The notes below the pieces were generated by a model, which ran no database searches, had not been told where the DNA came from, and was given only the letters and a program-made list of their open reading frames with translations. Of a stretch of 64,000 nucleotides of DNA, positions 37,536 through 43,617 are shown piece after piece. Within the stretch, counting starts at the first letter, position 1. Every line of letters begins with the position of its first letter. This stretch comes from Candidatus Nitrospira neomarina. Lineage in GTDB: Bacteria > Nitrospirota > Nitrospiria > Nitrospirales > UBA8639. The translations under genes and the position numbers were made by a program. The stretch spans positions 4,581,001 through 4,645,000 of the forward strand of contig NZ_CP116968.1 in the NCBI RefSeq assembly GCF_032051675.1, given 5' to 3'.

Positions 37536-37970
37536 TTATTGAGAACCAACCGCAACGGGTTGTCCCTTCATGTCTGTCTCGCCGGACTGTTTCGTGGTTT
37601 TTTCCACTGACCATTCATGGGGCGTAATCTTTAGGAGATGTCCTTTAAGCGTATAGAATTCGCCTTCCGGTATTTCCACCTGATCCGCGCCAGTCACGTT
37701 AATAGCCAGCACCCGTTTCTTGTCTCCTCTGTTGGATAAAATGATGCCGTTCTCCAATCGTTCCAGTTGATAGGCTCCTTGTTCGTTAATGACCAGGGAA
37801 TTGGCTTCTATCTTTGCGTGCATTTTTCCAACTTTATCGAAAATGGCAAAGTTGACTCGAACAGGGGTTCCTCCGGTTTTTCGGAGCTTCATTTCAATTT
37901 GGGGGAGTCCGTCAATTTCTACAATTCCATTGGAATTGCGGTACCAATGCGGTCCGACTTTCACATCCAT
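37536..37970 (-). CDS. Conserved protein of unknown function, beta-rich
   Basis: About 144 residues, soluble, without signal peptide. GGAGG (plus-strand CCTCC just above 37980) lies 1 nt before the Met at 37979 and 10 nt before Met 37970, so the latter was chosen. The sequence is nearly all beta: a WYRNSNGIVEIDGLP opening, IEMKLRKTGGTPVRVNFAIFDKVGKMHAKIEANSLVINEQGAYQLERL, then NRGDKKRVLAIN and FYTLKGHLLKITPHEW. It resembles the beta-sandwich proteins found as orphans in many genomes, but I cannot name it. Confidence 0.65.
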   Translation of the reverse strand: MDVKVGPHWYRNSNGIVEIDGLPQIEMKLRKTGGTPVRVNFAIFDKVGKMHAKIEANSLVINEQGAYQLERLENGIILSNRGDKKRVLAINVTGADQVEIPEGEFYTLKGHLLKITPHEWSVEKTTKQSGETDMKGQPVAVGSQ

Positions 37971-38324
37971 GCCCACCATGCCTCCTTTGTTCTTCAGTGA
38001 ATAAACTCCAAACTGATCCGTATTGTACTGACCGGATCAGCCTGGTGGCTAGAGGAAATGTTCCTTGGATGAGTGTTGAAAACATATGTGGTACCTCGGG
38101 ATGGTTGTAGGAATGCGTATGGGCGGCTTGCCCCTGCTCACATACTCCTTCGTGCGCTCCGCTCGTCCAAACGGGCAGCGGCTTTTTTTGAGCATCCTCA
38201 GGACAGGGCTGGGCGGGACTTCTTTCGGTCAGGCTCAGGACAGGATTTGAGCATTCCTTGAAATGGTGAGGGGGCTTGGGATGTGTGGGAAAGAATGCGG
38301 GAAGGTCGTCACACGTAAATGGAG
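37971..38324. other. Gene-free stretch containing a second repetitive element
   Basis: About 350 bp, without a supported gene; the 62-codon plus-strand frame at 38073-38261 reads through the repetitive element (38110-38260). Confidence 0.5.
38110..38260. repeat. Second intergenic element with internal repeats
   Basis: CTCAGGACAGG occurs twice (38197-38207 and 38234-38244), and TTGAGCAT also occurs twice around 38188 and 38247. Before them a CCGCT/AGCGG stem (near 38163-38180) is followed by a T-run, terminator-like. I recall related sequences as dispersed noncoding repeats; this needs a genome search. Confidence 0.45.
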
Positions 38325-38558: not shown

Positions 38559-40085
38559 TTATGCTTGAATGGGTCGATCTAATGTTCGGTACTGAATCGC
38601 TTCGGCAACATGTGTGGATGAAATCATAACCGATTCTCCTAAGTCGGCAATAGTTCGGGCCACACGTAAAATCCGCCCATAGGCCCGTGCGGACAACCCC
38701 AGGCGGGTGACGGCTTGATCCAACAGGGTGTTTCCGGCTTGATCCAGTTGGCAATATTTTTTGAGCAAGCGAGGCTTCAGCTGGGCATTGTTGAGGGTCT
38801 GCTCAGCGCGGTAGCGGTCGATTTGACGATGTCGTGCCTGGATCACTCGTTGACGAATGGTTGAAGAGGCTTCACCGGTTATCCTGCCCGATAGCTCTTT
38901 GACCGGGACTGCGGGGACTTCGATGTGGATATCCAGCCGATCAAGGAGTGGACCGGACAGACGGCTTCGATACCGTTGAATGTGATAGGGCGTACACACG
39001 CATTCATGGGTAGGGTCTCCGCAATATCCACATGGGCAGGGATTCATCGCGACGATCAACATAAGTTTGGCGGGAAACGTGAGGCTGGCCTGTGCGCGGG
39101 TCAATGTGACGGTTCCATTTTCCAGAGGCTGGCGTAAGCTATCCAAGAGGGACCGCTTAAATTCCAAGGCTTCATCTAAAAAAAGGACGCCATGATGGGC
39201 CAGAGAGACTTCTCCGGGACGGGGGATGGATCCTCCTCCAACGAGGCCGGCTTCCGAAATGGTGTGATGGGGGGCACGAAAGGGGCGATGGGCGAGGAGG
39301 GCCGCATGAGGTGGAAGGTTTCCCGCCACACTGTGGACCTGACTGGCTTCCAAACATTCCTGAAAGCTCATGGGTGGAAGAATACCTGTTAACCGTTGGG
39401 CTAACATGGTTTTTCCTGACCCTGGCGGACCCACCATGAGAAGATTGTGCCCACCTGCCGCAGCCACCTCCAGGGCACGCTTGGCCTGATATTGTCCCAC
39501 CACATCGGCAAAGTCCTCCTCAGTGGAGGAGAGTCCGGGGTGCACAAGGGGGAAGGTGTTTTTTGCAGGAAGGAGAGTGAGCGCCTCCTGGAGAAATTCC
39601 ACCACCTGAGGAAGGGTCGAGACGCCAAACACGGTGGCGTGGTCGACCACGGCAGCCTGTGAAGCATTGTCGTGAGGCAGGATCAATGAAAAGGGGTGAT
39701 GAGTGGCAATAGCCATGGACAGCGCCCCGGGTACCGCTTTGATTCTGCCATCCAGTGCCAGTTCTCCGACAAAAATATAGGAGGTAACGGCGTCTTGGGA
39801 CAGGACCCCTTCGGCTACCAAAATGCCGATGGCAATTCCCAACTCAAGACCGGCCCCTTCCTTTTTTAATCCGGCTGGCGCCAAATTGACGGTGATTTTT
39901 TTTGCAGGAAAATGGAACCCTGTGTTTTTGAGAGCGGATCGAACCCGGTCCCGGCTTTCACGAACGGTCGCATCGGGTAACCCCACGATGGAAAATTGTG
40001 GAAGGCCTCCACCAATATCCACCTCAATTTCAATGAGATTGGCTTCTAATCCCACCAATCCCACACTTTGAATTTTGGCTAACAT
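38559..40085 (-). CDS. comM: YifB/ComM family Mg-chelatase-like AAA+ ATPase
   Basis: AAA+ ATPase of the YifB/ComM family. In naturally transformable bacteria ComM is a branch-migration helicase needed for integration of divergent DNA; in others its role is unknown. The frame opens at 40130, but the family start is MLAKIQSVGLVGLEANLIEIEVDIGGGLP, so Met 40085 was chosen (508 residues). The N-terminal ChlI-like domain covers about 1-190. Walker A GPPGSGKTMLAQRL, GGGSIPRPGEVSLAHHGVLFLDEALEF (Walker B) and a Mg-chelatase C-terminal domain follow. A four-Cys zinc segment (CPCGYCGDPTHEC) is present. Confidence 0.93.
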   Translation of the reverse strand: MLAKIQSVGLVGLEANLIEIEVDIGGGLPQFSIVGLPDATVRESRDRVRSALKNTGFHFPAKKITVNLAPAGLKKEGAGLELGIAIGILVAEGVLSQDAVTSYIFVGELALDGRIKAVPGALSMAIATHHPFSLILPHDNASQAAVVDHATVFGVSTLPQVVEFLQEALTLLPAKNTFPLVHPGLSSTEEDFADVVGQYQAKRALEVAAAGGHNLLMVGPPGSGKTMLAQRLTGILPPMSFQECLEASQVHSVAGNLPPHAALLAHRPFRAPHHTISEAGLVGGGSIPRPGEVSLAHHGVLFLDEALEFKRSLLDSLRQPLENGTVTLTRAQASLTFPAKLMLIVAMNPCPCGYCGDPTHECVCTPYHIQRYRSRLSGPLLDRLDIHIEVPAVPVKELSGRITGEASSTIRQRVIQARHRQIDRYRAEQTLNNAQLKPRLLKKYCQLDQAGNTLLDQAVTRLGLSARAYGRILRVARTIADLGESVMISSTHVAEAIQYRTLDRPIQA

Positions 40086-40292
40086 GTTTGTCTTATCTAT
40101 CCCCGTTTCCGAAGTGTGGTGGCTGTGCATTCACGAATCTTAGGTCACGTTTTTTTGAAAACTCCAACCAACTCATGTGGCGGGTTCGGCCTGCGGGTTG
40201 CTGAAAGTTTCTGCCGTCCATAAGGGTTCACAGATATTGTGTAATGGGCTCATGCATGGGGCTTCTGAAAAATTTGCACTGTGAGCGAGTGC

Positions 40293-42176
40293 TTAGGGGG
40301 AAGATACGGGCGGTGAAAGAGCGGGGAGTTTCGGTGCAGGGGTAAGAGACGGGGGATTCGGAGGGGACGGAAGTACAGGACTTGGTCCCTCCGTGGAAAG
40401 GGTAGTTCCCTTCTCAGGGATCTGAACGGAATCCAATATGTCTTTGAGTTCCTTGCTTTCAATATTGTCTAACGACTCTGCGTTCGGGGGGGGAGCAGTT
40501 GAGTCCTCTAAGGATTGCGGTCTCTTGGGAGTAAGCGCTGAAGACTGTTCAGATTGAGACGCAGGTTTCTCCGTGACTGTGGGGACAGTTCTTTGTTCCG
40601 TTGCTGGAGGATTTGTTTTCAATGCCGGTGTCGTGACCGGAGTAACCGGTTTTTGGGAAGATGGTGGATTGGCGAGGTTGGAATGGCCTTGGGATGGCGC
40701 CGAGTTTGGTTGATCCGAAACCCGGGTGTCTTCAGATGTATGTTGTGGGCTCGGGTTCAGAGATTGTGTAATAGTGCGTGCCGGAGGAGCAGGCAATGGT
40801 GTTTCAGGATGATGTGATGCATCAGGTCTCAGGGAGCGATCCTCCACCACCGTTGTCGGGGATGGGGGTGTCGGGATTGCCCGGTTTGAATTGTCACCAT
40901 TTGGTGTGTCGCTGGTGTTCACGTGGGGAACTTCTGTCGTTGAGGTATTGAGCGGAGAAGAAATCGGGTTGTCAGGAGGTATGGTCGTGAATGAGTCTCT
41001 TGGCGGAACGACAGGAACCGGTTCGTTGATGAGTGGCTGCTCGGGGACCCTGAGCTGATTCGATGCCAGAAAAGGGATGCCGAGTTGTTCCTTATATATA
41101 TAACCCATGGTGCCACCAATAAAAAGAAACAAGGTGATTCCAATCGTTACGCCTAATTTTTTTCTCGTCTTGGCTCGGTGTATTTCTTGATAGTCGGTAG
41201 AGTGTTTCGGCCGGGTCACGGCCGGCGGTTGGTTGGGAGGGGGTACTGATATGGGTGCCTGTGGTGCAAGGCTCGGTGTCTCTATCTTGGCTGTTTGGAT
41301 TTCTGGCGTTGGTTGAGGTTCTGCAGGGACCTCTGGCGGCCTCAACACTTCAGGGGCAATTTTTACCAATTGCTGATTCAAAATGGTGAGAACATGGGTG
41401 GCATCTTGAAGTCGCTGTGAGGACTGATTCCGGGTCATTTGGCGGATAAGCTCACAGATGGCTTTCGGGACATGGTCCGGGAAGTCAAACATCGGGTCAG
41501 CCTGGTCGAAAGCCAGTTTCCCCATAATCGATGTCTTCGGAAGACCGGAATAGGGCACTCGCTTGGTGAGCATGTCGTACATCATGAAACCCAAGCAGTA
41601 CAAATCACTGCCGAGGGTCAGAAGTTCGCTTTTGGCAGTTTCCGGAAGCAAGTAGGGTAATGGTCTGAGTAACTCAGCGTCACCGTTTTTCAGGATGTCC
41701 ATCAGGATCCATGAAAGTCCGAGGTCCATGACTTTGATCTGGCCTTGAGGGCCGACCAGGACGTGCCCCGGATGGAGTGTGCCGTGAATGATGCCTTGAA
41801 AGTGGATATGAACTAACACTTCCGCAATTTCACGTGCCAGCAAGAGCATTTTTTCGACTGAAAGAGGCCCTTCATTCTGAATGACGTGTTGGAGACTGGG
41901 CGCGTCAAAAAATTCCATGCAGACGACAGGGGTGCCGTCCTGCTCTTCCACTTTGAAGATTTTAATGAGATTGGGGTGTTCTAATCGAAGGAGGGATTTG
42001 GCTTTTTCGATAAAGGCTTTTCCACGAATGAGCCGACCATTGATATGGGTGTGATACACCTTAATCGCCATTTCCTGCCGCAGTTCGAGATCATACCCAT
42101 AGTAAATGGTTCCGGTTTGGCCTTTGGCAATTTCTCCCTGTATTTCAATTTTTCCAGGCAACAGTTGTGTAGTCAT
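40293..42176 (-). CDS. Transmembrane kinase-like protein lacking the catalytic Asp (probable pseudokinase)
   Basis: 627 residues: a Ser/Thr-kinase-fold domain (about 10-270), Pro-rich linker, one transmembrane helix (341-361, LGVTIGITLFLFIGGTMGYIY) and a long Pro/Ser/Thr-rich external region to the end. The ATP lysine K39 is kept (MAIKVY), as are DLG at 151-153, LPE and the SDLYCLG Asp. But the catalytic loop reads HGTLHPGHV at 131-139, where active kinases have HRDLKPxN, so Asp, Lys and Asn are all replaced. The Gly-loop is also altered (AKGQTG). This points to a pseudokinase that binds rather than phosphorylates. No PASTA repeats were seen. Confidence 0.88.
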   Translation of the reverse strand: MTTQLLPGKIEIQGEIAKGQTGTIYYGYDLELRQEMAIKVYHTHINGRLIRGKAFIEKAKSLLRLEHPNLIKIFKVEEQDGTPVVCMEFFDAPSLQHVIQNEGPLSVEKMLLLAREIAEVLVHIHFQGIIHGTLHPGHVLVGPQGQIKVMDLGLSWILMDILKNGDAELLRPLPYLLPETAKSELLTLGSDLYCLGFMMYDMLTKRVPYSGLPKTSIMGKLAFDQADPMFDFPDHVPKAICELIRQMTRNQSSQRLQDATHVLTILNQQLVKIAPEVLRPPEVPAEPQPTPEIQTAKIETPSLAPQAPISVPPPNQPPAVTRPKHSTDYQEIHRAKTRKKLGVTIGITLFLFIGGTMGYIYKEQLGIPFLASNQLRVPEQPLINEPVPVVPPRDSFTTIPPDNPISSPLNTSTTEVPHVNTSDTPNGDNSNRAIPTPPSPTTVVEDRSLRPDASHHPETPLPAPPARTITQSLNPSPQHTSEDTRVSDQPNSAPSQGHSNLANPPSSQKPVTPVTTPALKTNPPATEQRTVPTVTEKPASQSEQSSALTPKRPQSLEDSTAPPPNAESLDNIESKELKDILDSVQIPEKGTTLSTEGPSPVLPSPPNPPSLTPAPKLPALSPPVSSP

Positions 42177-42444: not shown

Positions 42445-43617
42445 TCAGAGAACCTTAAGGGCTGTTCCTACCTTCCGTAATGCTCTGAGGGCGGTCTCGA
42501 GATGCTCAAGCGAATGATCGGCTGTCACCGTGATGCGGAGGCGGCTGGTCCCTTTAGGGACCGTGGGGGGGCGGACAGCCGGAATCCACACGCCCTCTGC
42601 CCGTAAGTGTTGGCTCATCTGGACCCCGATTTCCGGGTCGTTCACCATGATCGGGAGAATAGGGCTCTGAGTGTCGGTCAGTTGGAATCCCATGGTTACT
42701 AAGCCATGATGCAAATAATCTCGATTTCGCCAGAGCATCACTCTGCGTTGGGGTTCTTGACGGATGACACCCAGGGCTGCGCTCGCTGCGGCGGCAATGG
42801 CGGGTGGTGGGGCAGTAGTATAGATAAATGAGCGTGCGGTATTAACCAGATAGGCCACGAAATCTTTCGGCCCGGCAATAAAACCGCCGCTGGACCCAAG
42901 GGCTTTACTGAGGGTGCCCATCTGCAGGATGTGGCGGGAGTCTAAGCCAAAATGTTCCAGCGTGCCTCGACCGGTTGCGCCCATGACCCCGGTGCCATGC
43001 GCGTCATCAATGAGCAGAGTGGCACCATACTCTTCTGCCAATCCGGCTATCTCGGGCAGCGGAGCCACATCTCCATCCATACTAAACACCCCTTCAGTCA
43101 GAATGAGCGTCGAAGTCCGGGAGCGTGTTTTTGTCAGAAGACGCTTGAGATGGCTGACGTCGTTATGATGGAAGACGCGTAGCGTGGCCCGGCTGAGACG
43201 GCAACCATCGATCAGGCTGGCATGGCATAACCGATCCGCCAAAATCAGGCTATCTGCCCTGGCAAGATTTGGGATCACTCCTAAATTGGTGGCATAACCT
43301 GAAGAAAAGGTGAGAGCCGCCTCTGTTTCCTTAAAACTGGCCAATTCATCTTCTAAAACGTGGTGAGGCGTGACGTTGCCGGAAATTAACCGTGAGGCTC
43401 CAGATCCTACTCCAAATTTTTCGATGGCTTTTATGGCGGCATCTTTTACCTGTGGATGGTTGGCCAGCCCAAGATAGTTATTGGAGGCAAAAAGTAGGAC
43501 TTCCTGCCCTTCCACTGAAATGACCGGAGCCGAGGGGGAGTTGATGAGAGATAACTCCCTCAACAGGTGTTGTTGCGCTAAGGTTTGGAGGTCTTCTTTG
43601 AACATTGAGAGGGCCAC
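42445..43617 (-). CDS. bioF: 8-amino-7-oxononanoate synthase
   Basis: PLP enzyme joining pimeloyl-ACP/CoA and alanine in biotin synthesis. 390 residues, with the SNNYLGLANHP motif near residue 46, FGVGSGASRLISG, the DDAHGTGVMG pocket and the PLP lysine K238 in LSKALGSSGG. The start is GTG at 43617; an in-frame ATG at 43605 is equally possible, as neither has a strong ribosome site. Glycine C-acetyltransferase is closely related, but the overall pattern favours BioF. It is alone, without bioA/D/B nearby, and divergent from ilvB. Confidence 0.85.
   Translation of the reverse strand: MALSMFKEDLQTLAQQHLLRELSLINSPSAPVISVEGQEVLLFASNNYLGLANHPQVKDAAIKAIEKFGVGSGASRLISGNVTPHHVLEDELASFKETEAALTFSSGYATNLGVIPNLARADSLILADRLCHASLIDGCRLSRATLRVFHHNDVSHLKRLLTKTRSRTSTLILTEGVFSMDGDVAPLPEIAGLAEEYGATLLIDDAHGTGVMGATGRGTLEHFGLDSRHILQMGTLSKALGSSGGFIAGPKDFVAYLVNTARSFIYTTAPPPAIAAAASAALGVIRQEPQRRVMLWRNRDYLHHGLVTMGFQLTDTQSPILPIMVNDPEIGVQMSQHLRAEGVWIPAVRPPTVPKGTSRLRITVTADHSLEHLETALRALRKVGTALKVL

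Follow-up and report, generated by a model that had tools for sequence, protein, structure and literature searches.

Gene and locus

The window analysed here is a 64,000-nucleotide stretch of the Candidatus Nitrospira neomarina genome. On its minus strand, positions 40293 to 42176 hold an open reading frame that starts with ATG, includes its stop codon within these coordinates and encodes a protein of 627 aa, which we refer to as P0001. PF00069 matched residues 12-262 with an E-value of 2.7e-29 and 102.8 bits (cut-off 31.7) and the predicted pseudokinase domain spans residues ~5-270 (41367..42164, minus strand). At E <= 1e-3 the only Pfam models found in the protein were Pkinase and PK_Tyr_Ser-Thr, and NCBIfam returned kinases only. 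A preliminary description of the window had proposed a transmembrane pseudokinase in which HGTLHPGHV takes the place of HRDLKPxN. Residues 130-141 read IHGTLHPGHVLV, and the degenerate loop HGTLHPGHV indeed occupies residues 131-139 (41760..41786, minus strand), in place of HRDxKPxN. The residues that were said to define the fold are all retained in P0001: the beta-3 Lys K39 within MAIK (42060..42062), DLG at residues 151-153 (41718..41726), LPE as part of LLPE at residues 176-179, and SDLYCLG at residues 190-196.

A single transmembrane (TM) helix is predicted at residues ~340-362 (41091..41159, minus strand), with a hydropathy maximum of 1.68 for the 19-residue span beginning at residue 342, and is preceded by the basic stretch RAKTRKK. 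According to the positive-inside rule the basic flank of a TM helix lies on the cytoplasmic side, so the kinase domain should be cytoplasmic and the tail outside; with the host lineage being diderm, the tail would be periplasmic. This outer tail (residues 363-627; 40296..41090, minus strand) consists of 265 residues rich in Pro, Ser and Thr, 21% of them Pro. Hydropathy and composition thus agree with the preliminary description, which gave a TM helix and a Pro-rich tail of 265 residues. No Pfam domain was detected in the tail, even at E 10. Close to the C-terminus lies a short helix-like motif, ESKELKDILDSVQ (residues 574-586; 40420..40458, minus strand), for which we identified by eye a counterpart in all complete orthologues, for example DEEIEELLQSLD in the far clade. 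The tail may serve as a spacer that presents this motif for binding.

The pseudokinase gene is flanked on the same strand by a bioF-like gene of the 8-amino-7-oxononanoate synthase type upstream (42445..43617, minus strand) and a comM/yifB-like gene for a Mg-chelatase-like AAA protein downstream (38559..40130, minus strand), both of which we used as synteny markers only. The order bioF > pseudokinase > comM was conserved at all assembled loci. An operon with either neighbour found no support: the gaps to bioF and comM measure 268 and 162 bases, respectively, terminator and promoter scans around the pseudokinase gave results near chance, a hairpin 3' of the stop codon in G000 and G001 was not conserved, and only the gene order is kept. 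Together with a hypothetical gene at 37536-37979, comM also occurred in other genera that have no pseudokinase; this pair of genes is the older arrangement. The small gene (minus strand) encodes a hypothetical protein of 147 aa and adjoins comM across the order. Other noticeable characteristics of the region were found in individual genomes. In the far clade (L042, L043, L045) extra DNA separates the pseudokinase from comM and contains membrane-protein-like ORFs, ~200 aa each in L045 and shorter in L042, that are missing from the window. In G038 (loci L154/L159) comM appears split over two frames, likely by a frameshift or an assembly error.

Orthologues were found in 17 of the 20 genus genomes, and the pseudokinase is present in every congener whose assembly spans the locus. 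In the other three genomes, as comM is absent from the assemblies of G005 and G015 and truncated by the contig start in G004, the missing orthologue is no evidence of gene loss. One further genus of the same family (G038) carries an orthologue, and no others were found among 235 genomes of the order. In a scan of the genome contigs of 84,980 species (genome_contigs) the orthologue was confined to Nitrospirota MAGs, with close orthologues in Nitrospirales/Nitrospirota MAGs; the scan otherwise gave three distant ordinary matches. A plasmid search returned ordinary kinases only, at <60% identity, and a literature search for a Nitrospira pseudokinase gave nothing relevant.

Loss of the catalytic residues

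We aligned 66 sequences, comprising 20 distinct orthologous sequences and 46 other kinases. HGTLHPGH[V/I] recurs in each of the orthologues (20/20), which excludes chance or a sequencing error, and all eight HGTLHPGH residues are invariant. The position of the HRD Asp is T133 in P0001 and Thr in 20/20 orthologues, while the catalytic Asp and Asn were intact in 46/46 of the other kinases. The preliminary description had regarded the catalytic Asp, Lys and Asn as all changed and had proposed an alignment of homologues, in which intact HRD loops would speak for a sequence error in this genome; the three changes are real and are conserved in 20/20 orthologues.

The differences extend beyond the catalytic loop. 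The alpha-C Glu position is K58 in P0001, with Lys in 18/20 orthologues and Glu in 45/46 of the other kinases, and an invariant new Glu appears one residue N-terminal to position 58 in the orthologues. The GT of the activation segment is replaced by R171-P172 in 20/20 orthologues; the alignment shows the usual length for this segment in P0001. Where the Gly-rich loop has its first Gly, the orthologues have Ala or Ser, and Ala is also frequent there in active relatives. In the DLG motif the DFG Asp is kept in 20/20, whereas Phe is replaced by Leu in 18/20 (Phe in 46/46 active relatives). Further residues kept in 20/20 orthologues besides D151 are K39, the APE Glu E179, the alpha-F Asp D191 and R255.

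P0001 has a kinase fold and has lost at least one of the beta-3 Lys, HRD Asp and DFG Asp, two features of a Hanks-type pseudokinase. Judged by these comparisons it appears to be dead by three catalytic-loop residues and the alpha-C Glu, and it retains 2/3 of the pseudokinase-defining residues. The alignment confirms P0001 as a predicted transmembrane Hanks-type pseudokinase with a conserved catalytic-loop loss.

Predicted structure

For residues 1-277 AF2 predicted a complete kinase fold (pLDDT 89.8, pTM 0.89) when it was given the 66-sequence alignment; with the 18 close orthologues only, the pLDDT was 49. The top Foldseek match was S. aureus Stk1/PknB (E 1.9e-20, 24% identity), and Mtb PknB and PknA were also matched. 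The VIA-align scores were tied at Z 27-29 for active and inactive kinases alike (RAF, PknA, Stk1, Src-like Abl), and hence neither the conformation nor a close family can be read from them.

DSSP on the AF2 model assigned a helix to LSWILMDIL, residues 154-162 (41691..41717, minus strand), immediately C-terminal to DLG. In the 66-sequence alignment we observed family-specific constraints in this helix at L154, S155, W156, M159, D160, I161 and L162. In BIR2 a helix at the place right after the DFG-equivalent accompanies an inactive, occluded state (PMC4718504). The predicted helix of P0001 may resemble that state, which we treat as a lead and not as a test.

Phylogeny and constraint

In a tree that was built without the catalytic loop the 20 orthologous sequences formed one clade with a support of 100/100. 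The stem of this clade is long, with 1.41 changes per column, compared to mostly 0.01-0.2 at the tips. Its neighbours in the tree are the active kinases L070, L072 and L077 from the same family, with moderate support, where long-branch effects on the exact sister are possible. The catalytic loss thus occurred once, long ago, and the domain has changed very little since then throughout the genus. The succession of loss, a burst of change and then strong constraint is the pattern expected for a new function.

Members of the near clade share 90-97% identity. Their median dN/dS was ~0.08 for the kinase domain, ~0.65 for the tail and ~0.41 for the stretch around the C-terminal motif; purifying selection on the kinase domain is strong. 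Furthermore, 28 of 41 pocket residues are invariant compared to 103 of 225 elsewhere (p = 0.006, which is indicative only as the rows are related). The hinge residues 87-93 and K39 are nearly invariant in the orthologues, and 16 of the 24 residues in the alpha-F/alpha-G stretch 205-228 are invariant.

Kinases, FHA domains and phosphatases in the genomes

Across the 4.80-Mb single-contig genome PF00069 matched one protein, the pseudokinase. A profile of active Nitrospirales kinases detected no other Hanks kinases at E <= 1 in G000, G001, G019 and G009, so that in these four good genomes, which include the source genome, no Hanks-fold protein besides the pseudokinase was detectable. Of the 17 genomes of the genus in which PF00069 matched, 11 have it as their sole PF00069 protein and six have additional ones. 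An FHA domain was not detected in the source genome. The MviN-FhaA scheme requires an active eSTK and an FHA protein, and the allosteric-activator scheme requires a partner kinase. With neither an FHA domain nor a second Hanks kinase detected, both the MviN-FhaA role and that of an allosteric activator of a partner kinase are unlikely here, unless the partner is of a non-Hanks type. The linked active kinases or FHA proteins that had been suggested as a check did not turn up in the profile searches.

The genome also encodes a PP2C-type Ser/Thr phosphatase (L091, G000:C1:1527395-1527985), although it has no detectable active Hanks kinase. We rejected it as a specific partner. PP2C occurs family-wide (41/48 family genomes, though about half lack a PF00069 match), and its presence in genomes where no Hanks kinase was found indicates no specific link to the pseudokinase. 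As a separate observation, active Hanks kinases occur in pairs 4-7 kb apart on contig C9 of G041 (L070, L072) and in G072, G077, G081, G088 and G099.

Relation to known families

Seven bacterial pseudokinase families have been described in a 2025 review, namely ActPs1, ActPs2, ActPs3, GLW, CP1, DYD and DLHK, several of them with a C-terminal TM helix (PMC12599244). Judged by the descriptions given there P0001 appears to match none of them, as none has Lys+/HRD-Asp-/DFG-Asp+ with a C-terminal TM as its signature. In ActPs1 all three catalytic residues are substituted, whereas P0001 keeps K39 and D151. ActPs2 has Arg for the beta-3 Lys, Asn for the HRD Asp and a deleted DFG; in P0001 the Lys is kept, the Asp is Thr and DLG is present. 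The canonical motifs of ActPs3 (MviN) are fully degraded (VALT, no DFG) and its activation loop carries a deletion (PMC12599244), none of which applies to P0001. The GLW family shows GLW for HRD and Leu or Trp for the beta-3 Lys, where P0001 has HGT and K39. CP1 proteins have no TM helix, a fusion to a COG3899 ATPase and motifs that vary by member, in contrast to the TM helix at 340-362 and the lack of a second Pfam domain in P0001. DYD proteins replace the beta-3 Lys by Arg and carry the DYD motif (Lys kept and DLG in P0001), and DLHK proteins keep the HRD Asp and have no TM helix, both the opposite of P0001.

Two further groups share its general layout. EssB/YukC also combines a cytoplasmic pseudokinase, one TM helix and an extracytoplasmic part, and acts as a scaffold; it has lost all three motifs and has a shortened activation loop (PMC12599244), while P0001 keeps the Lys and the DFG Asp. 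The PASTA kinases PknB, StkP and Stk1 have the same kinase-domain fold and the same topology of kinase, TM helix and outer tail. P0001 differs in that its loop is dead and no PASTA domain was found; the NCBIfam model NF033483 scored 168 bits, below its cut-off of 450. Nearest by the tree are the active Nitrospirales eSTKs L070, L072 and L077 (also L080-L090), which share the order of kinase domain and TM helix where the frame is complete. In these HRD[IV]KPxN is intact, and the outer parts of L070 and L072 look helical or coiled-coil rather than Pro-rich. P0001 would therefore represent a new lineage-specific family, bacterial pseudokinases as such being already known. The earlier view that few bacterial examples of the type have been described apart from MviN-like ones does not hold, given the seven families in PMC12599244 and EssB/YukC. 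The parallel to MviN itself is limited to both being membrane-linked bacterial pseudokinases: MviN requires PknB and FhaA, neither of which was detected here, and P0001 keeps the beta-3 Lys and the DFG Asp.

Proposed function of the pseudokinase

A scaffold role is the default assumption for pseudokinases. Here, too, we consider the protein probably a binding or sensing scaffold rather than an enzyme, and a catalytically dead transmembrane Hanks-type protein serving as a regulated scaffold for binding is the reading to which we give somewhat more than an even chance. The scaffold or sensor suggested in the preliminary description is likewise the best-fitting candidate. The sequences show that the catalytic Asp, Lys and Asn disappeared along with the alpha-C Glu from a single ancestral active eSTK of the family, which then evolved fast along the stem before it became frozen. 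Under the scaffold reading the cytoplasmic domain would no longer be able to transfer phosphate; it would hold a fixed, partly closed conformation and may take up nucleotide without Mg2+. Its invariant C-lobe surfaces (activation segment, alpha-F/alpha-G loop) would bind a cytoplasmic partner. A second partner would meet the short terminal peptide in the periplasm, where the TM helix and Pro-rich tail would place it. In this way the pseudokinase could couple the state of the envelope to that of the cytoplasm, with partners that would be neither Hanks kinases nor FHA proteins in the source genome.

An unusual enzyme could account for the conserved pocket as well. Like P0001, the eukaryotic STRAD-alpha has lost the catalytic Asp. 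It also carries His instead of Asn171, another feature of P0001, and binds ATP without a cation (PMC4718504). This shared His, the conserved pocket and K39 make nucleotide binding by P0001 plausible by analogy. With Lys39 and the hinge 87-93 nearly invariant, the domain could go further and act as a STRAD-alpha-like switch whose cation-free binding of ATP/ADP reports the energy state of the cell to an envelope partner. We consider such a switch rather unlikely, as STRAD-alpha has no DFG Asp and relies in addition on an Arg of its DFG-equivalent motif, which P0001 lacks, and as STRAD acts on an active partner kinase (LKB1), of which no counterpart was found here. The pocket could instead catalyse another ATP-dependent reaction, in which metal or phosphate would newly be bound by H135, H138 and D151. 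SelO carries out AMPylation and SidJ glutamylation. Both retain the Lys and the DFG Asp (table in PMC12599244), as P0001 does, so that a repurposed enzyme remains a candidate, and the invariance of all eight HGTLHPGH residues exceeds what a scaffold would need. We nevertheless regard it as unlikely: no relative with such an activity was found, no match to a SelO- or SidJ-like family was obtained in Pfam or NCBIfam, the alpha-C Glu is lost and the model predicts the extra post-DLG helix as in occluded pseudokinases. The more specific proposal that HGTLHPGH, D151 and K39 form a metal/phosphate pocket for a non-phosphotransfer reaction at the inner membrane, e.g. nucleotidyl or amino-acid transfer, in lineages mostly without an active Hanks kinase, is decidedly doubtful.

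Loss of the HRD Asp is not always fatal to activity and certain so-called pseudokinases prove to be active. Lys39 and Asp151 are kept in P0001 and its conserved residues could complete both spines, but a weakly active kinase is very unlikely with the catalytic Asp, Lys and Asn, the alpha-C Glu and the activation-segment GT lost across all orthologues. An MviN-like phospho-scaffold, in which an active eSTK phosphorylates the pseudokinase or its tail and an FHA protein is recruited, shares the broad plan of a membrane protein with a pseudokinase domain, and six of the 17 congeners with a match do have additional PF00069 proteins. For the source genome it is already contradicted by the lack of any detectable second Hanks kinase (also in the three other good genomes) and FHA domain; moreover the tail is predicted to be extracytoplasmic, and MviN has lost the Lys and DFG that P0001 kept. 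We thus consider it highly improbable. A decaying gene, at which the lost catalytic residues might hint, has practically no chance of being the correct reading and is refuted by the dN/dS of 0.08, the open frames, the fixed locus and the 90-97% identity among near-clade members.

With one origin, a fully fixed loop and strong purifying selection, the family would be a clear-cut example in nature of a kinase domain retained for a role other than phosphorylation. As no active Hanks kinase was found in these genomes, the usual explanation, a role beside a partner kinase, is unlikely. With its Lys+/HRD-Asp-/DFG-Asp+ signature the family lends itself to a direct test of nucleotide binding. Bacterial pseudokinase families, so far mostly from actinobacteria, proteobacteria, cyanobacteria and firmicutes, would be extended to the Nitrospirales by a family with an uncommon feature, namely that no other Hanks-fold protein was detectable in the source genome.
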